The notes: generated by a model not told the origin, from the letters alone. A DNA stretch of 64,000 nt from Verrucomicrobia bacterium Tous-C9LFEB (GCA_002304345.1 NEUU01000004.1:1-64000), one strand, 5' to 3'; positions 37,582 through 64,000 are shown, counted from the first letter of the stretch. Numbers and translations are program-made.

Positions 37582-38384
37582 CGGAAATTTTTCAACGCGA
37601 CGGTAAAGGTGGCGATGGAGGCTCCGCCCTTGATCGCGGTGGGCAGGGTGTTGATGAAAGTTTCCGGCGTGTCACTCGCTCCCGCCAGGGGGACGGGACT
37701 GGTCACCCGTTTGGCGCTGGTTTCATCGAGAAAGACGAGCGAGATTTTGATGCAGGCGGGCAGTTGATTGACGGGCGAGGTCTTGCGCGAATTGCCGAGG
37801 TACGCGGTCCCATCCTTGTTATACGCCTGCACCCAGAGGCCGAGCACATTCTCGAGGAAGAGGCCCCGGTATTGACTCGTCTTCGTCGCGGGAGCCACGC
37901 TATCGAGCATGCTATCGCTGATCCATTTATCCGGATTGCTCCCATCATAGATCAGGTAATTGGTGTCAGTCGGATTCACCAGCATCCGGCAAAGATTCGC
38001 GCGATTGCCGTCGCGACGGATGAAGTACCCCACCTCCGCGATATTGCCGTTTGAAGAATCGGTGGCCACGGGCGCTTGCCAGAAAATGGAGTGAGGATGA
38101 TTAAGCGTCACACTCGTCGGGTTGATCACGAGTTGCAGCGCGGTGTCAGCGGTGTCGGGCGAGACGACCGCCTGCCGCAGTTCACGTCCCATGAAGGTGA
38201 GTGCCGATCGCGCGCGATTGCGGTGTTGATTTTGACTCAGCCCCTTCGTCCAGACGCGGCTCATCTGGTCGGAGAGGCCGACCAGAACCAGCATGACGAG
38301 CGACAGCACCGCCATCGCGGCGAGAATTTCCACGAGCGAGAAACCGGCGCGATGAGGTGGAGGATTACTTGGCGAGCGTTGCAT
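37578..38384 (-). CDS. GspJ-like minor pseudopilin (Verru_Chthon cassette protein C-like)
   Basis: This 268-residue protein has the processing site HRAG/FSLVEILAAMAVLSLVMLV, with Gly at -1 and Glu at +5, followed by a long amphipathic helix and a soluble beta-rich domain. Length and order place it as the GspJ equivalent. It should be cut and methylated by the prepilin peptidase, then join a tip complex in the periplasm. The ATG at 38384 was chosen; a GTG 12 bases upstream is possible. It overlaps the preceding gene by 20 bases and the next by four. Confidence 0.8.
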   Translation of the reverse strand: MQRSPSNPPPHRAGFSLVEILAAMAVLSLVMLVLVGLSDQMSRVWTKGLSQNQHRNRARSALTFMGRELRQAVVSPDTADTALQLVINPTSVTLNHPHSIFWQAPVATDSSNGNIAEVGYFIRRDGNRANLCRMLVNPTDTNYLIYDGSNPDKWISDSMLDSVAPATKTSQYRGLFLENVLGLWVQAYNKDGTAYLGNSRKTSPVNQLPACIKISLVFLDETSAKRVTSPVPLAGASDTPETFINTLPTAIKGGASIATFTVALKNFR

Positions 38385-38817
38385 GCAGGACTTCACGATT
38401 GGGTCGTTTTGCCGGGTCGGATACTGTCGTGGGCCAACTGAAAGTCAGCGTGGTGAGAACCAGATGGCTGCCCAGATCCGCCACCTCGGTGCTCGAGTTC
38501 GGCAAGCGGCCCGCCACCGCGCATTGATACAGCGAACTCGTATTGGCCGCGATCAGAGGCTTGTCCGCGCCGTCGGTTTGGAGTTGACCCTGATTGTCGA
38601 AAAAGTAATTCACCGGCGTCCCCACGACGAGCGCGTCCTTGCCCGACTGCAAGCGGCTGGTCACTTGCGCCATCATCGAGGCCAGCACCGTATCGTAGCC
38701 CGATTGTTTGCTCGCGATCAGGCCCACGCTCAGCAAGCCGAAAATGGAAACCATGGCAAACGAGACGATGCCGAGAGCCACCACCACCTCCACCATGCTG
38801 AAACCCGCGCGCCTCAT
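38365..38817 (-). CDS. GspI-like minor pseudopilin (Verru_Chthon cassette protein B-like)
   Basis: This 150-residue protein starts MRRAG/FSMVEVVVALGIVSFAM, a class of opening shared with GspI (short leader, Gly at -1, Glu at +5). It is the smallest of the four, as GspI is. The ATG at 38817 overlaps the stop codon of the upstream gene as ATGA, and its own 3' end overlaps the next gene, so all four are translated as one coupled unit. Confidence 0.8.
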   Translation of the reverse strand: MRRAGFSMVEVVVALGIVSFAMVSIFGLLSVGLIASKQSGYDTVLASMMAQVTSRLQSGKDALVVGTPVNYFFDNQGQLQTDGADKPLIAANTSSLYQCAVAGRLPNSSTEVADLGSHLVLTTLTFSWPTTVSDPAKRPNREVLHATLAK

Positions 38818-39410
38818 GGACGTTCGATTTTGGGAATTCCGGTATAGACGTTCAGAACGATGTCGTAGTAATTCGACGCCACGGCCGAATGATCCTGCAC
38901 CAGTCGCAGCACGGGCATCGTGTTCGCCTTGATCTGGGCGCTCTCCATCGTGCCGTCGGCGAGGAAGACTTGATAGGCGTAATGGCTTGCGCTGATCGTC
39001 TTGCCGGAATATTTCAAATCGCCGATGGCGGGCGAGACGGTGGGTTTGTCTGTGACGAAGACACCGCTATTCGTACTGTCCACGACCACCTCTGCGGGGA
39101 GGAGTGTCCACGGCGAAACCATGCTCCAAGTTTGCGTCGCCGACTTGTATTCGACGAGACAAAAGAGCCGGTAATCGAGCTTGGTATCGCCCGTGTTGAT
39201 CGCCATCACCAAGGCCGTCGACGTATTGCGCGAGATCGAATTTTGCCGGGCTTGATTGGCCAGGTCGGCGATCTGGTTGCCGCTGTTCACCAGCTTCGCC
39301 GCGCGCAGGGAATTGATTGCCGGGAATCCCACCGTGCCGATCAGCGCCATGATCGCGATGGTGACCAATAATTCCGTCAGGGAAAAAGCGGCGTTCGTTT
39401 TCATGGGCAT
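38814..39410 (-). CDS. GspH-like minor pseudopilin (Verru_Chthon cassette protein D-like)
   Basis: This 198-residue protein has a leader ending TNAA/FSLTELLVTIAIMALIGTV, with Ala at -1 and Glu at +5. It is the first gene of the pseudopilin set, the position of GspH in type II secretion operons. The start could be the ATG at 39410 or 39404; a third in-frame start lies 18 bases earlier. A 68-base gap separates it from the FAD oxidoreductase gene upstream, with which it may be co-transcribed. Confidence 0.8.
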   Translation of the reverse strand: MPMKTNAAFSLTELLVTIAIMALIGTVGFPAINSLRAAKLVNSGNQIADLANQARQNSISRNTSTALVMAINTGDTKLDYRLFCLVEYKSATQTWSMVSPWTLLPAEVVVDSTNSGVFVTDKPTVSPAIGDLKYSGKTISASHYAYQVFLADGTMESAQIKANTMPVLRLVQDHSAVASNYYDIVLNVYTGIPKIERP

Positions 39411-44725: not shown

Positions 44726-44836
44726 TTTTGTGATCACAACATCGAGGGCGTTGACTCCACCCATCGCGGCGTACGGCCTTGTTGCGATCGCAAGAATTAC
44801 ATTTTTCTTCTCGAAATTCCTAGGGGACTTCTAATT

Positions 44837-50768: not shown

Positions 50769-51740
50769 TTAGCGCTCTGTCAGGCAGTACTCCACCAATT
50801 CATCGACCGAAACCTGCGCGAGGCAAATCCGCGTATCGGCCCCGCCGTAATAGATATTCAGCGTACCGTCCGGCATCACGACCGCGCCATTGGTGAAAAC
50901 CACATTCGGCACTTGTCCCATGCATTCATAGGGTGTCTCGGGCTGAAGGATAAATTGACGTGGCGCGGCAACGATGCGATCCGGCTGATTGAGATCCAGC
51001 AGCATGGCCCCAAGATAATAATTTTCCGTCGCACAATTCTTCGCGGTCGCATGATACACACACAGCCAGCCGTGCTCCGTCTTGATCGGCACCGCGCCCG
51101 CGCCCACTTTGCATCGGCTCCACGGCGTATCCGGCATTACCACCGGACGCGATTCGCCCCAGTGCAGCAAATCCGGGGAGTAGCTGACCCAGATGCGGCC
51201 ACCCCCGTCGATATTCTGGGGTCGCTCGAGTCGCGCGTAACGTCCTTGGATCTTTTCCGGGAAGAGCGCGGCATTGCGATTCGAGGGCACGGAGAGTTCA
51301 CCCACCGCTTCGAAGGAGCGAAAATCTTTCGTCAGCGCCGTTCCGATGCAACTGCCGTAACCGCCCAACCAACTGGCGTGGGTGACATAGTAATGTCCCT
51401 CCAGTTGCGTGATGCGCATATCGAAACGATTTTCCAGGAACCGGCTTTCCGTATCGCGCAGCGGATAATCGACGGGCTCCGTTTGAATTTCAAAGGTCAC
51501 GCCGTCTTCACTCGTGGCCACATAGAACGCATTGTCGCGAGCCATGTCTTCCACGCGCAAGAGCAGCAGCACGCGATCTTCAAACCAGGTCGCGCCGCAG
51601 TTAAACACCGAGGAGCAGGGAACCGGCATATCGCCCGGGGCAATAATCGGATTCTTGGGGTGACGTTGCAGAATTCCGGTTTGATAGGCGCGCGGGCTTG
51701 TTTCGCGGACGCGTTTACGAGGGGCAAGGAGCGTTTTCAT
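50769..51740 (-). CDS. GH130 family glycoside phosphorylase
   Basis: This 323-residue protein has the five-bladed propeller features of GH130: NPIIAPGDMPVPCSSVFNCG near the N-terminus, LLLRVEDMARDN, RFLENRFDMRITQLEG, and YYGGADTRICLAQV at the C-terminus. Known members phosphorolyse beta-mannosides (for example mannosyl-glucose or mannosyl-N-acetylglucosamine) to mannose-1-phosphate. There is no signal peptide, so it acts in the cytoplasm on imported disaccharides. It follows the LacI gene by three bases and ends the six-gene run. Confidence 0.85.
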   Translation of the reverse strand: MKTLLAPRKRVRETSPRAYQTGILQRHPKNPIIAPGDMPVPCSSVFNCGATWFEDRVLLLLRVEDMARDNAFYVATSEDGVTFEIQTEPVDYPLRDTESRFLENRFDMRITQLEGHYYVTHASWLGGYGSCIGTALTKDFRSFEAVGELSVPSNRNAALFPEKIQGRYARLERPQNIDGGGRIWVSYSPDLLHWGESRPVVMPDTPWSRCKVGAGAVPIKTEHGWLCVYHATAKNCATENYYLGAMLLDLNQPDRIVAAPRQFILQPETPYECMGQVPNVVFTNGAVVMPDGTLNIYYGGADTRICLAQVSVDELVEYCLTER

Positions 51741-51743
51741 AAA

Positions 51744-52862
51744 TTACAAAGTCAAAGGCCGAACCGTTTCGCCGGGGTTCCACGTCGCATCGAGTTGAAT
51801 GCTGATGGGCAATCCTTCCGGGTAGGCGATGCGTCGCTGCACGACTTCCGGAACCAATCCACCCACTTTATCCATCGGCATGACCAGACCGGAAAGCGTA
51901 TGGCCATCCTGGGTCAGCCCTTCCTCCTCGACGCCATAGGAAACGATGCTGATATCCTTGGGAATGTGCAGGCCGGTTTCCTCAAGCTGCGTGATCAATT
52001 CGCGGGCGACCGGATTGGACGAGCACACAATCGCTGTCGGCTGCGGTCTCGTCTCGAGAATTTTCCGGCATCCCTGCCGGACGGCCTCGCTGAGAGAGGT
52101 GGTCGTCCAATCCCGCTCAATCAGGCAGACCGGCCAGTTCGCCAGATCCGGATGTTGGTTGGCCAGATAGAGCCACGAGGCGTAGCGCACGCCATGACCC
52201 GAGTGCGACAGCCAGTCCGCGGTATCCTCGTCGCTGAATTCCTCATCCGGCAAAAGAAAGGGCGCGTGGCGATCCAGAATTCCCAGCCAGGCAATATTAC
52301 GATGTCCCGCCGCCCGCAGCTTGTTTACCGCCAGGGCTGCCGCTCGCGCTTCGTTGAAGTAAACCGAATCCACGCCGGTTTGGAAGTCATGCCCGATCGT
52401 ATAAATCACCGGGGCCGACTTGCGCATCGCGTTGAGCCAGCGGGTTGGATACGGCTCGCTCAAGGCCACGCCGTGAAAATGTTCCTTGTTCAGGAAGGCG
52501 AGCATTTCATCGAGGCTCGCAAAGGATTCGGCCACTGCCGTCCCTTCCATTTTCGCCAGGCTGCGATTCAGCCCGATCATCATGTCATTGCGATACGGCA
52601 CCACATCGCCGCGATCGAGGGAGCCGACGGTGGGGCAGAGCAACGACAGCTTGTTCTCCGAGCCGCTGAACGCTTTCACAAAGGGAGGAAAGAGACGGTC
52701 CTTCGAGGAGAAATAACCGATCTCCTCCGCCTTGCGCCGGACCAGTCGCCGCGTTTCCTCGCTGATGCGTCCGATGCCGCGAAGCGATTTGGAAACGGTC
52801 ATCGTCGTCACGCCGAGTTCGGCGGCAATATCCTTGAGGGTTGGTCTGTTCATTTTATCCAT
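51744..52862 (-). CDS. LacI family transcriptional regulator
   Basis: This 372-residue regulator has the N-terminal helix-turn-helix PTLKDIAAELGVTTMTVSKS, hinge region, and a periplasmic-binding-protein-like sensor. Normally it represses until a sugar binds. It lies inside the gene run it may control, between the secreted jelly-roll protein and GH130, and is separated from GH130 by three bases. The start could be the ATG at 52862 or the one at 52853. The perfect palindrome at 57867-57879 upstream of the first gene is a candidate operator. Confidence 0.9.
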   Translation of the reverse strand: MDKMNRPTLKDIAAELGVTTMTVSKSLRGIGRISEETRRLVRRKAEEIGYFSSKDRLFPPFVKAFSGSENKLSLLCPTVGSLDRGDVVPYRNDMMIGLNRSLAKMEGTAVAESFASLDEMLAFLNKEHFHGVALSEPYPTRWLNAMRKSAPVIYTIGHDFQTGVDSVYFNEARAAALAVNKLRAAGHRNIAWLGILDRHAPFLLPDEEFSDEDTADWLSHSGHGVRYASWLYLANQHPDLANWPVCLIERDWTTTSLSEAVRQGCRKILETRPQPTAIVCSSNPVARELITQLEETGLHIPKDISIVSYGVEEEGLTQDGHTLSGLVMPMDKVGGLVPEVVQRRIAYPEGLPISIQLDATWNPGETVRPLTL

Positions 52863-52883
52863 CCGTTGCAGTTAGTCCTTCGA

Positions 52884-53618
52884 TCACTTTACAGAAAGAT
52901 CATCCACATCAAAAGCACGAGCTGTCCCGCAATTTCCCACCACCACCACATTTATTTTAGTAAATTTGCCCGAGGTGCCAAAGGCTCGAATCGGCGTGGC
53001 TTCCAGTAGAATATCCGGGGCTTCACCCGCTTCACGAATCGTCACCTTGCCCTCGACGGCCGGGGAGTTCGGATCGCGGGAGAAATCCGAGATCACAATC
53101 TCATACCACGTTTCTTTTTTCCACGCGGCTTTCTTGATGTCATCGAACGAAATTTTTCCCCAGCTCGCGCCGCCACTGGAAATCTGGATGAAATTATCCG
53201 CCGAGCCATCGCGCGTGCCCCCATTAAAACGAATCGCCATTCCATGCACTCCGTCATTGGAACCAATCAGGACTTGGGTCATGACGTAGCCATCGTTCGG
53301 GGCCATGACGCGCAGCTTGATGCGGAATTCTCCGGCCGCTTTTTCCTCCAGCACGAACGCTTGATCCTCGGGAATCAGGCGACGGTATTGTTCGTTCAAT
53401 TCGATCCGCGCTCCAGGGCCGGAATAGCCCGCGGCCAACTTCACCTTGCCCCCATGACCATCGCCCTGATGCACGGACCAATTCTCCACACTCTTCAGCT
53501 CCGTATCCTCCGGCACGGCGGAAAAAGTCTCCTGAACTCCGGCGATTCCTGACGGGCACGTCGCCTGCAGCACCCACAGCACGATCGCTGCGATGCCTGA
53601 CGAAGAGCTCAGTTTCAT
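52884..53618 (-). CDS. Secreted jelly-roll protein, untethered paralogue of the PEP-CTERM protein
   Basis: This 244-residue protein has a signal peptide (KLSSSSGIAAIVLWVLQATC region) and one beta-sandwich domain that stops at FDVDDLSVK with no anchor. It matches its upstream neighbour at many places (TQVLIGSNDGVHGMAIRFNG against AQILAGKNDGVNGLAVVFDG; FIQISSGGASWGKISF against VIKISSGGTGWGSITY). The ATG at 53618 begins the signal peptide; the frame is open for five codons before it. It lies 19 bases after the PEP-CTERM gene, in the same run. Confidence 0.75.
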   Translation of the reverse strand: MKLSSSSGIAAIVLWVLQATCPSGIAGVQETFSAVPEDTELKSVENWSVHQGDGHGGKVKLAAGYSGPGARIELNEQYRRLIPEDQAFVLEEKAAGEFRIKLRVMAPNDGYVMTQVLIGSNDGVHGMAIRFNGGTRDGSADNFIQISSGGASWGKISFDDIKKAAWKKETWYEIVISDFSRDPNSPAVEGKVTIREAGEAPDILLEATPIRAFGTSGKFTKINVVVVGNCGTARAFDVDDLSVK

Positions 53619-53637
53619 AGAGGGTGCTTGCATGGGA

Positions 53638-54465
53638 TTACGAAGTCCGAATTCTGCGACGCAGGAGGGGGAGACTCAAGAGCGTCAATCCGATGAGTGA
53701 CAGCGCGCCGGGTTCCGGAACGGCCATCGCCGTCAGGTCATCGAAATTAATTTGCCGAGCCGACGCCTTGTTTCCCACCAGCAGGCTATCGATGGTGTTA
53801 AAGGTTCCCGAATTCCCGAAACCGGTGACAAGTTGATTGCTCAACAGGATGGTCGAAGTCGTGAGGTCGGTGATCGTGACGTAGCCCGTGACGGCCGATC
53901 CATATCCACTGGAAACCAGAGAGATGTTGGTGAAATCCACCTGATACCAGTCATTGGCTTTCCAGTTCAGACTCAGCGTCGTATAGGTGATGCTGCCCCA
54001 GCCGGTTCCTCCCGATGAGATCTTGATCACATTATCGGTATTCACATCGGAAGTTCCTCCGTCGAAAACCACCGCGAGTCCGTTGACGCCATCATTCTTG
54101 CCCGCCAGGATCTGGGCCTGTTGATAGTTATTGGCGCTGCTCAATTGCAATTTGACGCTATACCCGCTGATGGTGGTCCCACCCGCTGTCATCTTGTCCT
54201 CGGTCGGAATCGTGTAGCGATAGAGGCTGAGATTGTTCATGGTCGCGCCCGCACCGCTATATCCCGCCGTGGCGGAAACGGTGGCATTCGTCGTTCCCGA
54301 TTGTAAGCTCCACCCGGAAACGCTTGGAAGCGCCGTGCCGTCGGTTACCCCCGAAAAGTCCTGCAGGGTGATGACCTCCGCGCGAAGCACGCCACACACC
54401 GGGAGCGCGATCGCGGCCAGTCCTATGATTAGTTTTCTGATTTTTTTCATGTTCATTTTGGTCAA
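53638..54465 (-). CDS. PEP-CTERM jelly-roll protein
   Basis: This 275-residue protein has a signal peptide (KKIRKLIIGLAAIALPVCGV) and a beta-sandwich domain starting ITLQDFSG, then the tail AVPEPGALSLIGLTLLSL and a basic end LLRRRIRTS, the pattern recognised by exosortase. Its domain is paralogous to the protein encoded just downstream. The start at 54465 overlaps the stop of the hydrolase gene as ATGA; ATG codons at 54456 and 54450 are alternatives. It should be attached to the cell surface or matrix. Confidence 0.8.
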   Translation of the reverse strand: MTKMNMKKIRKLIIGLAAIALPVCGVLRAEVITLQDFSGVTDGTALPSVSGWSLQSGTTNATVSATAGYSGAGATMNNLSLYRYTIPTEDKMTAGGTTISGYSVKLQLSSANNYQQAQILAGKNDGVNGLAVVFDGGTSDVNTDNVIKISSGGTGWGSITYTTLSLNWKANDWYQVDFTNISLVSSGYGSAVTGYVTITDLTTSTILLSNQLVTGFGNSGTFNTIDSLLVGNKASARQINFDDLTAMAVPEPGALSLIGLTLLSLPLLRRRIRTS

Positions 54466-57116
54466 GGTTGAGCGGCCCTTGATTGCACATCACCAGCTCC
54501 TCGGGTCGCTTCGGGAGGAGTTTTTGTCGTTGTAAAAGGGGAGGCGGCGGCGGAGGGCTCGAGCACCCACTGCCGGAAAGCGGATGGTCGCTTGCCTTCG
54601 CCAATGCCCGGAGTGATTCCGATCCAGCATTTGCGTCCGCGACCGTCATTATCATTGGCGATGAGGTTCATCCGAAAGACGCGGCCGTTGGTGACATTGG
54701 GGAAATTCAACACGGTCCACGGGATCAACATTTCGTAAATCGTCACGCCCTCGTCGCGTCGGCTGCTGACTGCCACGTCTTCACGCGCACGCGAAGTCGG
54801 ATAGGTCTGGTAAACGCCCGCGCCGGTTGCGGTGCGAAAGACGCCCAGTTCCACACATCGGCTGTCGTACCCTGAATCGGCACGGCTGCCCATATCCCAG
54901 CCAATCTGGAGCGAATCCTTTTGCCAGAATTGGGCATCACCCGCGCGGCTTTCAGTTGCGACGTCATCCGTGACCTTCACCGCCAGATAAAGGCCCTCGC
55001 TGATCCAACCGGTCCACACTTCCATGGAAAGATCTTTCGCCCCATTCCAGTCCACACCCGGATCGTGCGGAGAGACCGCCTCGCGATTCTCCAGCACGAG
55101 CGACTTGAGTCCAGCGACCTCGTCCAAGCGACCGTCCATTTTCACGGACGTTAACTTCGCGATGGGCGTCAGATCATACGAGAATGGGAACGTGATTTTC
55201 TTGCCGCTGCTTTCCTGCAAAAGCTCCAGAGGAATTTCTCCCTTGCCCGCCAGCGGCGCGCTCAACGAAAGAGTCACCACAGAGGAGCCCGTCGGCAGCT
55301 TGCGTGACTGGCCCAGTTCGGGACGATTCGTTGGGAAGAGTTTGATAGAGCACGGCTCACCGCTGTTATTCACCACATCGATGTTCAAGTGAGCGACATC
55401 GGTGAGATACGCCCGCTCGATCAAAAGCGTTTCCCGCGCCCGCAGCGGAGCCGATCGAATGGCTTTCTCCAAACGATCTGCTTCCCCGCCTTGCACCCGC
55501 ACAAAAAGCGGCAGCGCGCGGACCGTCCAGTCGCCTGACACCACACGGCCGAAACCGTCATTGATTTCCAGTCCGTTAAAATTCTTTTCCCGCAAGGCGA
55601 TCTGGATTTCTCCGCCAACGGACTTCGGTTCGCTCAACCACAGGAGAAACACACCGTCCCCGTTGCGATTGTCCGCAAAGCGCAAGACCTTGCCGAACTC
55701 TCCCAGCGGAAAGGTGCGGACAAAGCGAACATCATCCAGAAAACGCGCGCACGTCGCATAGGCTGCCGCGCCCGGAGTCGGATAGGAATTCGGTGGATTC
55801 CCGTGAAACATTCCATAGGTAAATCCTCCCTCGTAGCCGGGGAAAAACATTGAGAACCAAAACAGCTTCTCCACTTCCGGAACGGACCTCGCCAGCGCCA
55901 TCGCCTGCGCGAGATAAGCGGCCAGCAATTCTGTCGCAGGAGATGTCAGCGGCTCGTCTTTGTGTAAGCCCCAACCAAATTCCGTCGACCAGATGCGTGG
56001 CTTGAGCTCATGCTTTTTCATCAGCTCCGCCATGGCGGCGAATCGTCCCGCGGTCTGAATCGCATCGGGCGATTCGGCCTTCGCATCGGAGCCCAAATAA
56101 CGCGATCCCGTGTAGGGGTGTCCGCCCATGATGTTCATGGCCGCCGGAACTTCGGCCAAGGTGGCTTCGCTAAAACCCAGATGGGGGAAATCCACGCCAC
56201 TCACGTCCAAGCCGATGACCGGCAATTCGGGAGCGACGCCCTTGATGGTCTCGTATGCCGTCTTGAGCAGAATCGCGTAGATGCGGGAGATCGGAATTTT
56301 CCCGCTGGACTTGCGCGCACACTCGAGATCCGGTTCATTGACCACCTCGATGGCCGCGACTTGTCCGCGGTAACGCTCCACCACATCCTTAGTGAATTGT
56401 TGAAAAGCGGGGAGATACTCCGGTTTCGTCAGTTCCTCAACCGATTTCCACTTCGCCCATTTCGGCGGCATCTCGGGGCGAATGACCAGAACCACGCCAA
56501 TACCGTGTTGCCGTAATTCCGTAACGCGCCCATCGAGGCTTTTCCAATTGTAGGTATTCTCCGCGGGGGAGAGCCACTCCCAGACCGCTTGCTGCCGCTC
56601 GCATTTAATCCCGATCCGTTGCGCCGCCTCGGGGTCGCGATTAAACATCGAGCCGAAAAAACTCCGGGCATCCATCCGGCCGTAGTTGGGGAGTTTCTCC
56701 ACTACCGTCAGCGCGCTTTCCTGACGCGCTACGATCTGGCCCTGGTCTTGCAGGGTGACCAGAATACTCCAGTAACCGCGCGCCGTGGTCGGCAAGCTCA
56801 ACTTCTTCTCGATCTTGCCCGCGTTTTCAAAGGAAAGACTCCAGCGTTCCTGACGCGCGGCTTCACCGGGTGCCTGAATGGACGCCGTCAGTTCGACAGT
56901 CTTTTTTTGCTCGGACTTATTTTGCACCGCGATCTGGTAGTCGACGGCTTCACCCACGAAGGCCACGCCGGAGGGCACATTCGGAGTGATGACAATCTCC
57001 CAACCGGGCCGCGATTCCGCCGCCAGCCCCTGCATCCATCCCGCCCAGAGGAAGATCAAAATCAATCGTCCTAGTGAGCTGGAAGCGCTCCGATTTTTTT
57101 CGTGCCAGAGATTCAT
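54462..57116 (-). CDS. Secreted clan-A glycoside hydrolase with CBM9-like domain (884 aa)
   Basis: A signal peptide (LGRLILIFLWAGWMQGLAAE) is followed by an Ig-like domain, a barrel with IEVVNEPDLE (acid/base Glu261) and IWSTEFGWGL (nucleophile Glu379), and a CBM9-like domain from about 665 to 865 that includes LYLAVKVTDDV and LIANDNDGRGRK. The layout resembles the 819- and 966-residue enzymes but similarity is low. It overlaps the pseudopilin gene before it and the PEP-CTERM gene after it by four bases each, so the three products are translationally coupled. The cleaved bond is unknown. Confidence 0.8.
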   Translation of the reverse strand: MNLWHEKNRSASSSLGRLILIFLWAGWMQGLAAESRPGWEIVITPNVPSGVAFVGEAVDYQIAVQNKSEQKKTVELTASIQAPGEAARQERWSLSFENAGKIEKKLSLPTTARGYWSILVTLQDQGQIVARQESALTVVEKLPNYGRMDARSFFGSMFNRDPEAAQRIGIKCERQQAVWEWLSPAENTYNWKSLDGRVTELRQHGIGVVLVIRPEMPPKWAKWKSVEELTKPEYLPAFQQFTKDVVERYRGQVAAIEVVNEPDLECARKSSGKIPISRIYAILLKTAYETIKGVAPELPVIGLDVSGVDFPHLGFSEATLAEVPAAMNIMGGHPYTGSRYLGSDAKAESPDAIQTAGRFAAMAELMKKHELKPRIWSTEFGWGLHKDEPLTSPATELLAAYLAQAMALARSVPEVEKLFWFSMFFPGYEGGFTYGMFHGNPPNSYPTPGAAAYATCARFLDDVRFVRTFPLGEFGKVLRFADNRNGDGVFLLWLSEPKSVGGEIQIALREKNFNGLEINDGFGRVVSGDWTVRALPLFVRVQGGEADRLEKAIRSAPLRARETLLIERAYLTDVAHLNIDVVNNSGEPCSIKLFPTNRPELGQSRKLPTGSSVVTLSLSAPLAGKGEIPLELLQESSGKKITFPFSYDLTPIAKLTSVKMDGRLDEVAGLKSLVLENREAVSPHDPGVDWNGAKDLSMEVWTGWISEGLYLAVKVTDDVATESRAGDAQFWQKDSLQIGWDMGSRADSGYDSRCVELGVFRTATGAGVYQTYPTSRAREDVAVSSRRDEGVTIYEMLIPWTVLNFPNVTNGRVFRMNLIANDNDGRGRKCWIGITPGIGEGKRPSAFRQWVLEPSAAASPFTTTKTPPEATRGAGDVQSRAAQP

Positions 57117-57859
57117 TTTAAGAGATCGTTGAGAGCTTGTTGCTTCCAGCGCAGATCGCCATAAGCCGCGGTCTCGACATGCCCATCCGCCATCAAGACA
57201 TTCGCCAGATTCCGATGGCGCGCGGTGAAGCGTGAATCCCCCGCCGCCGTGGCCGTAGGATTATCGAGGCTGTAAAGTGCCCCTTTGTCGGCATCCATCA
57301 CGACAGGCCAATTCGATAAACTTTGGATGCGGGAATACAAACGCGTGTCATCTTGGGACCGGTGCGGCGTCGGCAGCCAAATCATCGCATCGAGCATCCC
57401 GTAATTGACCGAAGTGGGCGGGATCGTGCCAAACGTAATCGGCCCATTCTTTTGTGCGGGGCAAGACAACACTTTCGGGGAAGAGAGATATCCTCCGCCT
57501 TTCGCGCCTGACGACGGCCCGAGGAGTTGATGAAACCAATAATAGGTCGTAGTCGAATCGTATATCTTCGGCATGACGCCATCGTTCTCCGACCGATACA
57601 ACGATAGTGCGATCGCTATCTGCCTCAAATTCGACTGGCATTTGGCGGATTTCGAAATGGCCTGAACCTGTCCCACCACCGGCAACGAAATGGCCGTCAA
57701 TAGGACGATAATCGTCACAACCACCAGCAACTCGATTAGCGAAAAGGCCGACCCCTTTTCCTTGGAGGCTAACTTCGCCCCCTTAAGGAGCCGATAGCCG
57801 TCGTCACACGAGATCCATCGATCCGCTTGAGTGCGAGAGATGGTAATGACGCTGGCCAT
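57113..57859 (-). CDS. Pseudopilin with H-x9-DG C-terminal motif
   Basis: This 248-residue protein has the prepilin site SAFSLIELLVVVTIIVLL (Ala at -1, Glu at +5) and a C-terminal HRNLANVLMADGHVE, which fits the H-x9-DG motif seen in prepilin-like proteins of Planctomycetota and Verrucomicrobiota. The leader before the cleavage site is unusually long (about 40 residues), and the true start may be further in. It is the first gene of the run and overlaps the hydrolase gene by four bases. It should be processed by a prepilin peptidase and sit in the cytoplasmic membrane. Confidence 0.8.
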   Translation of the reverse strand: MASVITISRTQADRWISCDDGYRLLKGAKLASKEKGSAFSLIELLVVVTIIVLLTAISLPVVGQVQAISKSAKCQSNLRQIAIALSLYRSENDGVMPKIYDSTTTYYWFHQLLGPSSGAKGGGYLSSPKVLSCPAQKNGPITFGTIPPTSVNYGMLDAMIWLPTPHRSQDDTRLYSRIQSLSNWPVVMDADKGALYSLDNPTATAAGDSRFTARHRNLANVLMADGHVETAAYGDLRWKQQALNDLLK

Positions 57860-57866
57860 GAATTAA

Positions 57867-57879
57867 GGTTATAATAACC
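57867..57879. promoter_or_regulatory. 13-bp palindrome, candidate operator
   Basis: GGTTATAATAACC is a perfect inverted repeat with a central A, eight bases before the annotated start of the pseudopilin gene. Given that a LacI regulator is encoded in the same run, this is a plausible operator, though LacI sites are usually more GC-centred. Confidence 0.4.
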
Positions 57880-58157
57880 CTAATAAATGTCAATCGAAGA
57901 TTTTCAAGGCTTGAAAGCAGCTATTTGGAATTATTTTAACTTCGATCGATCAATCAGCTCCGAATTCCCGTGAAAGGTGCTCAATTTGGGATGCCTGGCT
58001 ACCGCGTCGGACCGGAAGAGATGTGGTCGCCTTCGAGTTGCAAGTGAACGCAAGCTGCGCGGGGGAAAGGCAAATCGTGCGCCAACTCCATGTTTTCATG
58101 TCCCGCCTCCATCCAATGCCCGTTTACGTTGGTCGCTGAAGACATACACTGATTCAT

Positions 58158-58934
58158 ATGAAACGCTATACAGACCTACTCGCGTTGTTTCTGATTTTGC
58201 TGGCTTCCTGTCTGTTTGGGCCGCAAGCCAAGGCGCAGCTCTTTTACGAAGGGTTCGACAACAGCACGGGGAGCAACATTCTCGGTATTGGCAACTACGG
58301 CAGTAGCTGGCATGCGGTCATGGGTGTGGCGAACAATCCGGTGACTGACATCACCTCGGCGACCTCGGGCAACTATTTTATGATCAACGGTGGCGCCGGC
58401 AATCCGAATGCCTCTGCCGGTTTTCTCTCTGGAGGCTCCACGGCCACCGGGTCCACCACTTATTATGCGGCCTATACCACCTTGGCCTCTTCGCTGACCA
58501 TTCCCACCGGCACCGCCATCACGTGGACGATGGGCAACAACGTCACAGGTATGGGAGTTCGTCTGCTCGTGCAAAGCAGCGGCAATTGGTATACCACGGG
58601 AGGAGCGTGGAATTCCAACACTACCGCCTTCAGTACGGATAGTGCTTTTGCCTCCGCTGCCACGGCATCGATCACGTATACCTATACGTTTGCCACCACC
58701 GGCTGGCGATCGGTGACCCTCACTCCGGGAGAGAATCTGGTTCTCGAGCCTCAGCCGGGGGCTTCCACACTTCCCACAAACCAGATTACAGCCATCGGTT
58801 TCTTCATGTATGAATCGAATGGCAACATCACCCGTTTGGATTCCCTCACGGTTGTTCCCGAGCCTTCCTCATTTGCTCTGCTCGGTCTGGGTGCGGGAGC
58901 GTTGGGCCTTCTGCGGCTGCGCCGAAAGAGCTGA
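58158..58934 (+). CDS. PEP-CTERM protein
   Basis: This 258-residue secreted protein has a signal peptide (LLALFLILLASCLFGPQAKA), a Gly/Ser/Thr-rich beta domain opening LFYEGFDNSTG and the tail VVPEPSSFALLGLGAGALG with a basic end RLRRKS. It should be sorted to the surface by an exosortase encoded elsewhere. It is transcribed toward the 356-residue secreted protein on the other strand; the two stop codons are about 40 bases apart. Function unknown; the domain resembles the other jelly-roll proteins in general character only. Confidence 0.8.
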   Translation: MKRYTDLLALFLILLASCLFGPQAKAQLFYEGFDNSTGSNILGIGNYGSSWHAVMGVANNPVTDITSATSGNYFMINGGAGNPNASAGFLSGGSTATGSTTYYAAYTTLASSLTIPTGTAITWTMGNNVTGMGVRLLVQSSGNWYTTGGAWNSNTTAFSTDSAFASAATASITYTYTFATTGWRSVTLTPGENLVLEPQPGASTLPTNQITAIGFFMYESNGNITRLDSLTVVPEPSSFALLGLGAGALGLLRLRRKS

Positions 58935-58949
58935 CGTTCCGATTTCCCC

Positions 58950-58966
58950 GACTCTTTTAGAGTCGA
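58950..58966. terminator. Hairpin between convergent genes
   Basis: CGACTCTTTTAGAGTCG forms a short stem with a TTT loop between the PEP-CTERM and 356-residue protein genes. It lacks a clear T-run, so it may be a bidirectional but weak terminator. Confidence 0.4.
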
Positions 58967-58976
58967 GAAGTTCGGA

Positions 58977-60047
58977 TCACCTGTTCATCGGTTCGTTCGG
59001 TTTGCCATAATGAGGAGGCAAAAACTGAATCTTTTCCCACGGGAACCCTTGCAGGATTTCCCACCCCGCGGCGCTCTTGAAAATTTCAGGATAAGGATCG
59101 GGCAGTCCTTTTTGCGTCCAGGCTTTGGGATTCTCGGCCCGCAACGAAATGGCTCCTGCCCGATCCCACACAACGAATCCATATTGTTGCGCGGCCCGGG
59201 CGATGATTTTGCCCGCCGGATGCATGGATAAGGCCTCCACATCCACATCGGGATTCAGACGAAAGCGTTGTCCCTCCTGAATGCGATGCGGCAAACGTTC
59301 CGGATTCGAACCGTCCGACCGTTGCGCCGGCCAGGAGAAAAGTTGAGGCTCCTCGCAATCAACGAGAGCGATTCCCATGACATGATGGATCGCTCCGCGC
59401 CGAAGCTCCTCCGCGGTGATCTGGCCGCCTATGAAGGGAAGGCTCGTCGCGGTCGTTCCGAAATGATCCGGCCAGATGCCCGGATTGCGGGAGACGTTCG
59501 TCATTTTTCCACCCCAGCAGGCTTCCCATTGGCCCTCTCTTTTTCGGGTATTCCAAAACTCCCACAAGGTATCCGTCTCGGGTTGGTAGATGCACATCTC
59601 GGCATCCGTGCCATCGGCTGGAGCGGCATACTCTGGAATCGGCACCGCCTCCCACTGCGCGGCAAGTTTCGGATTTTTGAACCCTTTCTTCTGCCCATCC
59701 CATTCCTCCACCCGAACGGTCGGCGTCTCTTTCGGGACAAGGTAAACAGGACAGGAGAATGCGACCGTATTGATCGTAACGGTGTTGTAGTACTTCTTTT
59801 TTTGCCGCAGAAACTCCGTCACCAAATTTTCCGAGTCGGCATGCAAGGGGACATCCTTGGGGAGGGGCTGGTACCAAAAACTGGTGGGTGCAAAGACCGT
59901 GTGCGTAGCGGGCACTATTTTTTCAGTGGCGATTCCTTTCAGCATAAACAACAAAACCAATGTGGCGGCTATCGCTAGCCTCGCTAACCGGGATCGAATG
60001 ACCACGTGAGCCACAAGGCTTAAAAAATCAGGTTTCAGATCAGCCAT
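58977..60047 (-). CDS. Conserved secreted protein, WYQPLP family (unknown function)
   Basis: This 356-residue protein has one N-terminal hydrophobic segment (LARLAIAATLVLLFMLKGIA) and then the opening FAPTSFWYQPLPKDVPLHAD. Blocks such as MCIYQPETDTLWEFW, ACWGGKMTNVSRNPGIWP, TATSLPFIGGQI and YGFVVWDRAGAISL resemble, from memory, a family of secreted proteins common in Actinobacteria that have no assigned role. The ATG at 60047 places the helix near the N-terminus; the frame is open 51 bases further upstream. It converges on the PEP-CTERM gene. Confidence 0.6.
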   Translation of the reverse strand: MADLKPDFLSLVAHVVIRSRLARLAIAATLVLLFMLKGIATEKIVPATHTVFAPTSFWYQPLPKDVPLHADSENLVTEFLRQKKKYYNTVTINTVAFSCPVYLVPKETPTVRVEEWDGQKKGFKNPKLAAQWEAVPIPEYAAPADGTDAEMCIYQPETDTLWEFWNTRKREGQWEACWGGKMTNVSRNPGIWPDHFGTTATSLPFIGGQITAEELRRGAIHHVMGIALVDCEEPQLFSWPAQRSDGSNPERLPHRIQEGQRFRLNPDVDVEALSMHPAGKIIARAAQQYGFVVWDRAGAISLRAENPKAWTQKGLPDPYPEIFKSAAGWEILQGFPWEKIQFLPPHYGKPNEPMNR

Positions 60048-60098
60048 GGATATCCTCGCGTGGAAGGGTACGGGGAGGCTCCCCCGCGACGAAAGCAA

Positions 60099-60295
60099 AA
60101 ACGGATTTCGGTCAAAGCGCGTATTTGGGGATCATATTTAAAAATATGGCTTATAAAGAACATATTCAATACCGTTCTGATATTATAAACGGAATTAAAT
60201 TTAGATATTATTACATAACATACTTTTAATTACGTAGATGTGTTATAATAAAAGCGTCGAAAATTGCTATTGCATTATGATCTGTTTATTGTATT
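60099..60295. other. AT-rich regulatory region upstream of the GntR-type regulator gene
   Basis: This is the most AT-rich stretch of the window and holds several imperfect inverted repeats, including CCGTT/AACGG around 60173-60193 and ATAACA/TGTTAT around 60216-60245. It probably contains the promoter of the regulator gene and of the divergent secreted-protein gene, but no single -35/-10 pair stands out. Confidence 0.4.
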
Positions 60296-61423
60296 ATGTG
60301 GCTCGTAATGAGAGTGGAAACAGGTTCCAAAGTCGAAATCGTCTACCAGGCGCTGGCGGAACGCCTGAGCGCGGGTATTTGGAAGGTAGGCGAATACATT
60401 TCGACCGAGGAAGCGTTGGCCCGCGAGTTTGGGTATGGCCGCAATACGATTTCCAAGGCGATTGCGCGCATGGCGCACGAGGGATTGGTGGAGCGGAAAA
60501 AGCGCGCGGGGACCCGCGTCCTGCAGTCTGAGGTCCGGCGCGAGCGTACCTCGGTTGATCTCAATGCGGTGGCCTTCATCTGCCCGAGCGAACAGCACGA
60601 AGGCATCTGGCGCACGATCCGGGGATTTCAGCAGGCTGCGGGGGAGAAGAAGCGTCGCACGTTGACGCTGACCACCGGCAGCGACTACCGCAAGGAGCTG
60701 GAGATTATCGGTCGCCTGGTTGAATTTGACGTGCAGGGCGTCGCCATGAATGGAGTCGAACCGCTGCCGGAGAATGTCACACATTTCCAGAAGCGATTGC
60801 AGGAAGCGTCCTTGCCGATGATTCAAGCGGGCGCGGCCTGTCTGGGGCTGCAGATACCGAGTGTGATTGTGGATGGTTTTCATGCGAGCCATACGATGAT
60901 CCATTACCTGTTCGACAAGGGGGTCCGGCGCATCGGTTATTTCGATACCCGCGCTCCGATCTCACCATGGATTTTGCCGCGTTACCAAGGGTATCGGTGG
61001 ACGCTGGCCGAGCTGGGACTGGTGGAAGATCCGCGTTTGGTCTGCGCGCGCGAATCGAAGTGCAACGACTTCAATGATCCGCTGGCGGAATCCAAGGCTT
61101 TCGCGCGGGAATATCTCGATCAGATCAAGGGCTTGAATGTCGAGGCGGTTGTTTGCGGTACCGATTACTGGGCGCTCGGATTGATCGCCGCGGCGATGGA
61201 GCGTGGCATCGAGGTGCCGCGCGATCTGATGGTGACGGGGGTGGATGACTACGCGATGGCCAGTTCGGCTCCGGTTCCGTTGACGACCTATCGCGTGCCG
61301 TTCGAGGCCATGGGGCGGAAGTCCTATGAAATGCTCGAAGAAATGATTTCAACCGGTCGGTGGCGGAAGGTGGAAACGCAGGTGCAAATGCGTGGAGAAG
61401 TGGTCATTCGAAACAGCGCTTAA
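60296..61423 (+). CDS. GntR-type HTH regulator with LacI-like sensor domain
   Basis: This 375-residue protein has a winged helix-turn-helix of the GntR type (STEEALAREFGYGRNTISKA, then GLVERKKRAGTRV) and a C-terminal periplasmic-binding-protein fold as in LacI regulators (VCGTDYWALGLIAAAMERGI and VTGVDDYAMASSAPVPLTTY). It is the AraR-like arrangement. The start could be the ATG at 60296 or at 60308; neither has a ribosome binding site. It precedes the PEP-CTERM gene by 42 bases and probably controls the module with it. Confidence 0.85.
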   Translation: MWLVMRVETGSKVEIVYQALAERLSAGIWKVGEYISTEEALAREFGYGRNTISKAIARMAHEGLVERKKRAGTRVLQSEVRRERTSVDLNAVAFICPSEQHEGIWRTIRGFQQAAGEKKRRTLTLTTGSDYRKELEIIGRLVEFDVQGVAMNGVEPLPENVTHFQKRLQEASLPMIQAGAACLGLQIPSVIVDGFHASHTMIHYLFDKGVRRIGYFDTRAPISPWILPRYQGYRWTLAELGLVEDPRLVCARESKCNDFNDPLAESKAFAREYLDQIKGLNVEAVVCGTDYWALGLIAAAMERGIEVPRDLMVTGVDDYAMASSAPVPLTTYRVPFEAMGRKSYEMLEEMISTGRWRKVETQVQMRGEVVIRNSA

Positions 61424-61459
61424 AAAACAGAAGCTAAGGCATAAATACAAAACGCGAGA

Positions 61460-61471
61460 TAACATATGTTA
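61460..61471. promoter_or_regulatory. 12-bp palindrome overlapping a start codon
   Basis: TAACATATGTTA is a perfect inverted repeat; its central ATG is the start codon of the PEP-CTERM gene. A regulator bound here would block both transcription and translation of that gene. AT-rich palindromes of this length also arise by chance. Confidence 0.3.
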
Positions 61472-62611
61472 AATAAAATTGAGCTGTACTTCAATAGAGG
61501 ATGTCGGGTGCAAATCGTATCATTGATGTCCTTTTTGCTGCTGGGTGGAGTTGAAAGTGCTTTGTCCCAAACATGGGTGGGGTTGGGGACGGATGGCAAC
61601 TGGAGTACGGCAGCCAATTGGGATACGACATCGCCTGCGAGTGCGAGCACGACTGTAGTGACTCTATCCGGTACGACAGGTCTGACCTCGAGCGTGGATA
61701 CGGCTTATACCGTGAAATCCATCGTTTTCGCCAGCGGCAGTGGCGCATTCAATGTCACGGGGCAGCAGATTTCGCTTCAAGGGACCGACGGTACGCTTGA
61801 TATCGTCAATAACTCGACCACCGACCAGGTGATTAATAATAACATCAAGCTGCTGTCTAATAGCGGTATCTCGACGGGTTGGAATACGGCTTACGGAACT
61901 TTGACCGTGAATGGTAATGTGGACGGCAACGGCAAGACGCTAACGTTCGCCAACTCCTCGACGAGGGCCATGACGGTGAACGGCATCGTGAGCGGCGCGA
62001 GCTGGGTGCAGATTTATGGCGCGGGGTACGTGGTGCTGAATAACGCCAATACAGTCACGAGCGGTATGGCTGTGAGTGGCAAATTGATCGTCAATGGTTC
62101 CTTGGCCACGAGCGCCAATGCCCTGGTGATTCAGAATGCGGGCTTGTTGGGAGGCAAAGGGGTGATTAACAAGAGTGTGACGATTCAAAATGGTGGCATC
62201 CTCTCCGCGGGTGAAATCAATGCTTCCAACGTCAGTCAGGCAAATCTGCTGACCTTGGGGTCGAACCTGACGCTCAACAACACCTCAAAACTGAAGTTTG
62301 ATCTGGGCACAGCGAGTGATCTGGTGACTGTGGCGGGCAATTTAACCTTGGACGGTTCGCTGGATGTCACGGCCATGTCTGGATTCGATCTTGGCAGCTA
62401 TACCTTGTTCTCCTACACCGGAACGCTTACGGACAATACCTTGGACTTAGGAACGATGCCGAGCATGGGATATAATTACTCGATTGATACCTCGACCATC
62501 GGTTTGGTGAAGCTCAATGTGGTGCCGGAGCCGAAGACGTGGGCCTTGTGCCTGTTGGCCACCGCGGTTTTGATCGTCGCCCGCCGTCGCCGCGTGATCT
62601 TCAACCTCTAG
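61466..62611 (+). CDS. PEP-CTERM protein with autotransporter-like beta-helix repeats
   Basis: This 381-residue protein has a signal peptide (VSLMSFLLLGGVESALSQ), then TWVGLGTDGNWSTAANWDT, an opening typical of autotransporter-associated beta-strand repeat proteins, then a Gly/Asn/Thr-rich body with repeated N-x-LTL/GTLTVNG strands. It ends with VVPEPKTWALCLLATAVLI and RRRR. It should be surface-sorted through exosortase and may form a right-handed beta-helix scaffold. It lies between the regulator and a secreted jelly-roll protein gene. Confidence 0.8.
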   Translation: MLNKIELYFNRGCRVQIVSLMSFLLLGGVESALSQTWVGLGTDGNWSTAANWDTTSPASASTTVVTLSGTTGLTSSVDTAYTVKSIVFASGSGAFNVTGQQISLQGTDGTLDIVNNSTTDQVINNNIKLLSNSGISTGWNTAYGTLTVNGNVDGNGKTLTFANSSTRAMTVNGIVSGASWVQIYGAGYVVLNNANTVTSGMAVSGKLIVNGSLATSANALVIQNAGLLGGKGVINKSVTIQNGGILSAGEINASNVSQANLLTLGSNLTLNNTSKLKFDLGTASDLVTVAGNLTLDGSLDVTAMSGFDLGSYTLFSYTGTLTDNTLDLGTMPSMGYNYSIDTSTIGLVKLNVVPEPKTWALCLLATAVLIVARRRRVIFNL

Positions 62612-62651
62612 ATTTCCTTAACATCCTGCCTGACCCACTTTGGATGACTCT

Positions 62652-63344
62652 ATGAAAGCTCTTCTTCTCTCCTTGGTATTGTGTTCGGCATGGATGACGG
62701 CTCCGGCAGAGACAATCATCAAGGATTCGTTCTCGCGGAGTGAGTCGCGGAAATCGAGCGATCCACTGGAATCCCGTCCCACCGAAACGGGAGGCGCGAC
62801 ATGGATCGCGACGCGCAATCTCGTCATCGCGCCGGATGCGGCGGGACAATCCGGCGTGGCGGTGTCGAATGCCGGGGCCTTTAGCGGCAAGGTGGCGCTT
62901 CCCGCCGAAGGGGATCTCATCACGATTGAAGCTGAAGTACGCGCCGTTCCTTCGGCTGGGGGCACAAACTGGGTGGCCATCGGGCTCGGCGACCTGCCGA
63001 GGGAAGGGGAGTTCAGTTGGAGCAAGGGCCTCTTTCTCCTCGTCATGAATACGGGCCAATTTCAATGTTTCGCAAATTTCCAAGCGGGCGGTGCGGGCCC
63101 GACCATCGCGATCAAGAACGGGAACACACTGGATTTCGACGCCACCGGCATGACAAAGGTCAAGATCGAGTATGACCGCCGCAGCCACGTTCTGTGCCTG
63201 TGGGTGAATGAGATTGCCGTGGTGAAAGGTTATCCATTCAAGGAAAACCAATTTCTGCCCGATACAAGCTTTGCCGGGTTTAGCGGATTCAAGCAAACGC
63301 CCATGACTCAAACGGTGCGCAATTTCTCCGTGACCGTGAAATAA
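62652..63344 (+). CDS. Secreted jelly-roll protein without anchor
   Basis: This 230-residue protein has a signal peptide (KALLLSLVLCSAWMTAPAE) and one beta-sandwich domain opening IIKDSFSRSES and ending MTQTVRNFSVTVK, with no PEP-CTERM tail. Its size, opening and ending match the untethered proteins at 31777-32496 and 52884-53618, although sequence identity is low. The ATG at 62652 was chosen; another lies 12 bases upstream. It follows the PEP-CTERM gene by 40 bases and precedes the pseudopilin gene by 13. Confidence 0.7.
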   Translation: MKALLLSLVLCSAWMTAPAETIIKDSFSRSESRKSSDPLESRPTETGGATWIATRNLVIAPDAAGQSGVAVSNAGAFSGKVALPAEGDLITIEAEVRAVPSAGGTNWVAIGLGDLPREGEFSWSKGLFLLVMNTGQFQCFANFQAGGAGPTIAIKNGNTLDFDATGMTKVKIEYDRRSHVLCLWVNEIAVVKGYPFKENQFLPDTSFAGFSGFKQTPMTQTVRNFSVTVK

Positions 63345-63357
63345 GGCGGGCCGATTT

Positions 63358-64000
63358 ATGACCACACACCCTCAATCCCGGGCTTTTACGCTGACTGAGT
63401 TGCTGGTGGTGGTTTGCATTATCGCCGTGTTGGTCGCTCTCGGTTTGCCCACCATGAAGACGGCGCTCATGCGCGCGAATCAAACCAAGAGCATGGGCAA
63501 CCTCAAAAACATCGGAGCCGCCGTGTCGACCTACTTGGCCGAGAATGACGGGCGATATCCTTATCAAAGCGGCACCAACTCCACCCCGCCCTATTGGAGT
63601 GTCAAAGTCACCTCCTACCTTTCCGCTCCGACCGGAGTGAAGACTTTCAAAGGCGTCGCGGTTCAGGTGAGCCCGGTCATGATGGACCCGATGTTGGGGC
63701 AGACGATCCACCACTATCTGGGAGATTACGGCTGTAATAATTGGGTCTTTGTGATCCCGGACGAAGGTGCCCCACAGCTCTCCGCGGCAGCCCTCACACG
63801 CTCCTCGGAGATCGTCATGGTGATGACGGCGGGAAATATGACCCCCGAGGGGGTCACCACCTCAGGGAGTTGGTATGTCAACTCGAGCTACTTTGCATGG
63901 GGTGGGAAATTCGGCGCCCAGGGTTGCCCCGCCTACCGGGCCACGGACAATGTGCTGTCTCTTTTCGTCGACGGCCACCTGCAGTCGATTCCCAAGGATG
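63358..64000 (+). CDS. Pseudopilin (truncated by window end)
   Basis: The frame from the ATG at 63358 is open to the window end and gives at least 214 residues. It begins with the processing site SRAFTLTELLVVVCIIAVLV (Ala at -1, Glu at +5). The end region reads ATDNVLSLFVDGHL; the DG is in place but the histidine of the H-x9-DG motif is Ala. The gene lies 13 bases after the jelly-roll gene and is co-directional with the module. The C-terminus is not in the window. Confidence 0.8.
   Translation, partial: MTTHPQSRAFTLTELLVVVCIIAVLVALGLPTMKTALMRANQTKSMGNLKNIGAAVSTYLAENDGRYPYQSGTNSTPPYWSVKVTSYLSAPTGVKTFKGVAVQVSPVMMDPMLGQTIHHYLGDYGCNNWVFVIPDEGAPQLSAAALTRSSEIVMVMTAGNMTPEGVTTSGSWYVNSSYFAWGGKFGAQGCPAYRATDNVLSLFVDGHLQSIPKD

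Follow-up and report, generated by a model that had tools for sequence, protein, structure and literature searches.

Prepilin-type genes linked to regulators, PEP-CTERM proteins and glycoside hydrolases in likely polysaccharide-utilisation operons of Verrucomicrobia bacterium Tous-C9LFEB

Introduction

Genomes of Verrucomicrobiota and Planctomycetes contain dozens to more than 100 pilin genes that have no known job. In a stretch of 64,000 nucleotides from Verrucomicrobia bacterium Tous-C9LFEB (GCA_002304345.1, NEUU01000004.1:1-64000), hereafter called the window, a gene for a prepilin-type protein (pilin) stands in the same gene set as a LacI-type regulator, a PEP-CTERM protein and a glycoside hydrolase, which raises the question of what a single pilin does there. 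A preliminary description, made from the sequence alone, had pointed to two such sets, set 1 (50769-57859) and set 2 (from 60296), and had suggested that the pilin serves the hydrolase and the surface proteins by export or display.

In Bacteroidota, SusCD-type loci combine a regulator, a surface glycan-binding protein and glycosidases for each polymer. PEP-CTERM proteins are abundant in Verrucomicrobium (PMC1569441). In Verruconatronum alginivorum, a PulG-like pseudopilin lies inside an alginate-induced operon, and the genome has 67 homologous pseudopilins (PMC13274419). The parts of the planctomycete literature available to us describe a large paralogous DUF1559 / H-X9-DG pilin-like family, with 68 members in P. 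limnophila (PMC10632474, PMC5394234, PMC12078418), dextran-binding pili-like fibres (PMC5394234), and the proposal, in a review, that dedicated pilin-like proteins act as polysaccharide 'fishing rods' (PMC12078418). Prior publications thus cover large families of pilins, the alginate-induced operon with its pseudopilin, and the fishing-rod idea. The systematic linkage of pilin, LacI, PEP-CTERM and hydrolase genes described below appears to be new; a partial literature search returned no report of it.

Results

Set 1 consists of six co-directional minus-strand genes in the order pilin, PslG-like clan-A hydrolase, PEP-CTERM lectin-fold protein, unanchored paralogue, LacI regulator and GH130 enzyme (Table 1). 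Neighbouring genes overlap by 4 bases (ATGA) at the tightest junction and are 21 bases apart at the widest, so the order and tight spacing first described (4-base overlaps, gaps below 25 bases) were correct. The PEP-CTERM gene overlaps the hydrolase gene by 4 bases if it starts with TTG and lies 5 bases from it if it starts with ATG; the gaps further downstream are 4 bases to the paralogue, 21 from there to the LacI gene and 3 between the LacI and GH130 genes. In set 2 the intergenic gaps are 42, 28 and 13 bases. Beyond the window edge (locus L009) the set 2 pilin totals 232 amino acids and is followed by a GH5 gene (102.6 bits) and then a CE2-type esterase gene. Since GH5 belongs to clan A, set 2 also has a clan-A hydrolase, outside the view of the preliminary description. 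The presence of two gene sets with matching parts was thus borne out, set 2 being completed by the GH5 gene.

The set 1 pilin scores above the cut-offs of TIGR04294 (19.1 bits, cut-off 19), TIGR02532 (16.8, cut-off 16.3) and PF07596 (28.7, cut-off 23.3), and it carries both the N-terminal prepilin motif and the C-terminal H-X9-DG motif of the H-X9-DG prepilin-type family. Its leader of 38 amino acids is unusually long, and the start codon is uncertain. The AlphaFold 2 (AF2) model has a long helix and a head, with a predicted local distance difference test score (pLDDT) of 77. The set 2 pilin matches neither TIGR04294 nor PF07596 despite a DGH-like tail, and is therefore classed only as prepilin-type. 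The unanchored protein of set 2 had no match in the Pfam scan.

The set 1 hydrolase matches Pfam GH42-like (25.2 bits) and CBM9 (38.6 bits) families. It aligns with P. aeruginosa PslG (PDB 5bx9, 4zn2) at 38.2 bits over residues 155-421, including the NEP and STE-GW catalytic motifs, which are kept in all three hydrolase paralogues of the window genome. On these matches it is classed, at the level of the clan, as a PslG-like enzyme of clan GH-A. The two proteins share the clan-A barrel and the two motifs; unlike PslG, for which the similarity is 38 bits only, the set 1 hydrolase is longer, has a CBM9-like domain and stands in a catabolic-looking context rather than one of exopolysaccharide synthesis. 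The PEP-CTERM assignment in set 1 is marginal by PF07589 (16.0 bits for the protein, 20.7 in the genome search, cut-off 20.7); the versions of this gene in L109 and L111 also terminate with a PEP motif, a hydrophobic stretch and a basic tail. Its AF2 model (pLDDT 80.5, eight sequences) matched legume lectins and CBM66 in Foldseek, with a best E-value of 6.7e-6, in line with the jelly-roll fold suggested earlier. The hydrolase and the lectin-fold proteins start with Sec-type signal sequences, and no signal peptide was seen in the GH130 protein. For the latter, the assignment extends to the GH130 family; it matches solved phosphorylases over most of its length, the nearest being TM1225 and UHGB_MP (about 190-200 bits) and mannooligosaccharide phosphorylase. 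In L018, a paralogous operon of the set 1 type, the first gene encodes a GH38 protein. Because the GH130 protein is nearest to mannoside phosphorylases and GH38 heads the L018 operon, a mannose-containing polymer is the likely substrate of set 1 type operons.

The association is found throughout the window genome, which gave 78 prepilin-type, 75 LacI-sensor and 83 PEP-CTERM matches. With one further H-X9-DG match there were 79 pilins, and removal of 16 in type II secretion system (T2SS), Verru_Chthon-like or other paired clusters left 63 single pilins. Of the 63, 31 have a LacI gene no more than 5 kb away (12.8 expected), 39 a PEP-CTERM gene (14.2 expected) and 24 both (6.7 expected). None of 3000 whole-contig rotations and none of 3000 local shifts of 10-40 kb reached these counts, for which the lengths of some small contigs are estimates. 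The signal persists under local shifts, and a shared-island artefact was rejected as its cause. Thus, pilin, LacI and PEP-CTERM genes co-occur above random expectation in this genome. In 68 pilin-containing units, whose genes were called with a simple codon-usage script rather than a trained gene finder, the orders LacI > PEP > hydrolase > pilin, PEP > pilin and LacI > pilin recur. Among 94 operon mates, the Pfam matches included GH42-like (9), GH5 (6), GH10 (6), beta-helix (5), CBM9 (5), GH113 (3) and GH130 (2) families. None of these is among the 25 families listed, of 207 in all, for the 94 proteins taken as controls from nine other stretches. Over 49 units, pilin similarity correlated with homology among the mates: the Mantel r was 0.39, a value that no permutation out of 5000 reached, and 0.29 when the set 1 triplet was left out.

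The full six-gene order of set 1 is conserved elsewhere. A hydrolase search of the named genomes returned three loci: L109 (HJP_bin11, hydrolase 84% identical) and L111 (SCN18, 52%) keep all six genes in order, and L110 has pilin, hydrolase and lectin-fold protein. The set 1 and L111 pilins are 55% identical over 207 amino acids, a conservation similar to that of the hydrolase, and the LacI proteins are 69% identical. As the L111 genome (G062) falls outside the 62-genome set of the window's order, the operon probably spans orders, depending on how that comparison set is defined. The window genome encodes two close paralogues of the set 1 hydrolase, and each follows immediately on its own pilin, with a 4-base overlap. 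Farther hydrolase homologues in G001 and G002 (about 300 bits) have no pilin within 1.5 kb on either side. Paralogues of the set 2 PEP-CTERM gene adjoin LacI and pilin genes in L038 and L047. Strict pairing of pilin and hydrolase was rejected, as mixed modules were found.

These results bear on the explanation that there is no shared mechanism, abundant pilin, LacI and PEP-CTERM genes merely travelling together in mobile or recombining islands of glycan genes. The abundance of all three families, several solitary pilins and the mixed modules would all be expected in that case. We nevertheless regard it as quite unlikely, given linkage above local shifts, gene order and overlap kept at 52-55% identity, and a correlation between pilin and mate similarity that holds without the set 1 triplet.

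Related genomes point the same way. Pilin and LacI counts increase together across six genomes (78/75, 77/60, 66/54, 32/20, 25/16 and 12/8). Among the matches listed, at least 11 of 57 pilins in G002 (5.4 expected) and at least 7 of 34 in G003 (2.2 expected) lie within 4 kb of a LacI gene, the same direction but weaker. G062 has 112 pilins, and the same module orders occur there in loci that were picked by frame size, not at random.

Table 1. Coordinates of features in the window
Feature	Position	Strand	Basis or remark
Prepilin-type protein with H-X9-DG tail, set 1 first gene	57113..57859	-	TIGR02532, TIGR04294, PF07596 above cut-off
Secreted clan GH-A hydrolase (predicted), PslG-like, CBM9-like domain	54462..57116	-	4-base ATGA overlap with pilin
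PEP-CTERM lectin-fold (jelly-roll) protein, set 1	53638..54465 (TTG start) or 53638..54456 (ATG start)	-	Marginal PF07589, AF2, Foldseek
Unanchored paralogue of set 1 PEP-CTERM protein	52884..53633	-	36% identical to PEP-CTERM protein
LacI-family regulator, set 1	51744..52862	-	PF00356 (helix-turn-helix, HTH) and PF13377 (Peripla_BP_3) above cut-off
GH130 mannoside phosphorylase-like enzyme (predicted)	50769..51740	-	PF04041 143.2 bits, cut-off 26
Putative promoter-like block TTGACATTTATTAGGGTTATTATAACCTTA upstream of set 1 pilin	57864..57894	-	Inverted repeat GGTTAT-T-ATAACC
GntR-HTH/LacI-sensor regulator, set 2	60296..61423	+	PF00392 57.3 bits, PF13377 98.3 bits
PEP-CTERM protein, set 2, putative beta-helix	61466..62611	+	PF07589 22.2 bits, cut-off 20.7
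Unanchored secreted protein, set 2	62640..63344	+	Homologue in L047 operon, 28% identical
Prepilin-type protein, set 2	63358..63999, onward beyond window edge	+	TIGR02532 20.5 bits, cut-off 16.3
Cluster nearest Verru_Chthon cassette: D, unnamed small pilin, C, A	35017..39410	-	NCBIfam TIGR02596, TIGR02599, TIGR02600

Discussion

Sets 1 and 2 are very probably polysaccharide-utilisation operons. They share with SusCD-type loci the functional layout of one operon per polymer, but have a pilin instead, and their regulators are of the LacI and GntR types. The preliminary description had remarked on the lack of SusC/SusD, and no SusC/SusD-type family was found in the scanned proteins of sets 1 and 2, the two loci that were scanned.

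The contribution of the pilin is less certain, as linkage and joint duplication with the hydrolase would fit capture, secretion and display alike. What machinery is available is relevant here. A single complete T2SS locus lies at C3:86-109 kb and includes three GspE/PilB-type ATPases together with pseudopilins of its own. The genome also contains a TAD-type locus, and four ATPases score above the curated cut-off for the PilT/PilU family. Since about 60 dispersed pilins stand against very few machines, the simplest reading is a many-to-one arrangement. Known T2SSs use one pseudopilin set for many exported substrates. This weighs against the idea that the pilin is a substrate-specific T2SS pseudopilin or adaptor aiding export of the hydrolase and lectin-fold proteins encoded with it, as do the T2SS's own core pseudopilins, the pilin operons in which no exported enzyme is obvious, and the different sorting route taken by PEP-CTERM proteins. 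We therefore consider such an adaptor rather unlikely, even though a single complete T2SS, Sec-type signal sequences on the proteins to be exported, and pilin and hydrolase genes that overlap by 4 bases and are duplicated together all suit it, and the authors of the V. alginivorum study propose the T2SS for alginase export (PMC13274419).

The pilin might also act in surface display or adhesion, as a co-regulated scaffold, anchored in a filament or in the membrane, that keeps the cell or its enzymes on the polymer without retraction. Its occurrence with lectin-fold and PEP-CTERM surface proteins, and variable heads atop a conserved N-terminal helix, are consistent with this. However, its surface location is presumed, and a known scaffold domain was not found in the pilin head, so that this role seems quite unlikely.

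We tentatively prefer the following reading, which taken as a whole has in our view slightly less than an even chance: the two sets are regulator-controlled utilisation operons, each with its own pilin, whose head gives a shared filament its polymer specificity. A utilisation operon with a dedicated pilin is suggested by linkage above both nulls, by operon mates rich in glycoside hydrolases, by the conserved six-gene order and by a pilin as conserved as the hydrolase. The same reading draws on paralogues with their own overlapping pilins, the Mantel correlation, the presence of a T2SS and PilT/PilU ATPases, and the published alginate pseudopilin and dextran-binding fibres. In this scheme the LacI or GntR-LacI protein would sense a sugar and switch the operon. 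Sec-exported lectin-fold proteins would bind the polymer, one being kept at the surface through PEP-CTERM sorting, and the clan-A hydrolase would cut it; in set 1 the GH130 phosphorylase would complete the breakdown of manno-oligosaccharides in the cytoplasm. The pilin, having no machine of its own, would enter shared machinery of the T2SS or type IV pilus (T4P) type as one of about 60 dispersed subunits. Its variable head would most likely set the specificity of the filament for the polymer of the operon by catching it, and PilT-type motors would then draw the caught polymer to the cell. Capture as the job of the pilin is, taken by itself, possible rather than probable.

Several observations weigh against this reading. 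The head of the set 1 pilin has no significant match in the PDB, including no solved carbohydrate-binding fold, and a fold of that kind, considered as a candidate, was rejected on this search. Homologous hydrolases may accompany unrelated pilins: the PEP-CTERM, secreted and GH5 proteins of set 2 all have homologues in L047 (GH5 48% identical), but the pilins of the two units are dissimilar. The PilT motors may serve ordinary twitching only. Pilins of G003 lie mostly in Verru_Chthon-like clusters, and operon mates in G062 show weak glycosidase enrichment, with fewer recognisable glycosidases.

Like the probable operons of sets 1 and 2, the V. alginivorum operon, which is induced by its polymer, has a PulG-like pseudopilin among its genes for polysaccharide degradation; it differs in its enzymes (PL15, PL39 and PL29), and neither PEP-CTERM/LacI linkage nor a genome-wide linkage test is reported (PMC13274419). 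Planctomycetes resemble the window genome in their large paralogous pilin-like family, but in the parts of those reports available to us no gene is assigned to the fibre and no tie to individual polysaccharide operons is described (PMC10632474, PMC5394234, PMC12078418).

A broader proposal, which we regard as doubtful, is that the pilin marks verrucomicrobial polysaccharide loci as a signature gene in the way that SusCD marks those of Bacteroidota, and that exchangeable glycan specificity is conferred on one shared retractable filament of the T2SS/T4P type by dozens of locus-specific pilins. Polysaccharide loci would then become predictable from pilin genes. Tying individual pilins to regulated polysaccharide operons provides a testable substrate for each and a genomic handle on large-sugar uptake by these bacteria, a long-open question.

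Neighbouring features

The region at 25-39 kb had been described as repeating the theme of the two sets with four pseudopilins. This holds for its glycosidases and PEP-CTERM protein; its pilins are of the Verru_Chthon-like type and not those of the module. The cluster at 35017-39410 is, by its family scores, closest to the Verru_Chthon cassette of Verrucomicrobiota prepilin-type genes (TIGR02596, TIGR02599, TIGR02600). The cassette models are the best matches yet all fall below cut-off (A 182.6 of 332.3 bits, C 51.8 of 256.5, D 39.5 of 70), so the cluster is not filed as a member and is treated as a pilin type separate from the single-pilin module. Unlike single pilins in LacI/PEP-CTERM operons, these genes are clustered and minor-pseudopilin-like, and protein A also resembles GspK. 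An AraC regulator gene lies beside them, as do genes for GH71-like and GH42/GH39-like enzymes. The pilins look like alternative minor-pseudopilin sets, not another copy of the single-pilin module. Further Verru_Chthon-like clusters occur in L020, L033 and L047, and L028 and L046 may contain others. Judging by their gene order and weak similarity to GspH/GspJ/GspK, such clusters may be alternative minor-pseudopilin (tip) sets besides the core T2SS. Upstream of the cluster in the window, 40970-44764 encodes a protein of 1264 amino acids with bacterial Ig and cadherin-like repeats, possibly a surface protein.

A stretch of L009 downstream of set 2 (C31:76896-81051) has two LacI and two PEP-CTERM genes in alternation and no pilin; regulator and surface protein thus also exist as a reduced module.

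Upstream of the set 1 pilin, the putative promoter-like block is identical in L109, and L111 has a related version of it. The ATG at 57859, the sole in-frame start of this pilin, lies 4 bases from the conserved block, and the 38-residue leader is not conserved in L109; the mRNA may be leaderless, or the start may be a non-standard one. CG-centred palindromes of the LacI type showed no enrichment over the control upstream of pilin operons and were rejected. Beside the set 1 operon, window 58977-59945 and L109:3625-4704 each encode a protein without a Pfam match, and the two have the C-terminal sequence EILQGFPWEKIQFLPPHYGKP in common.

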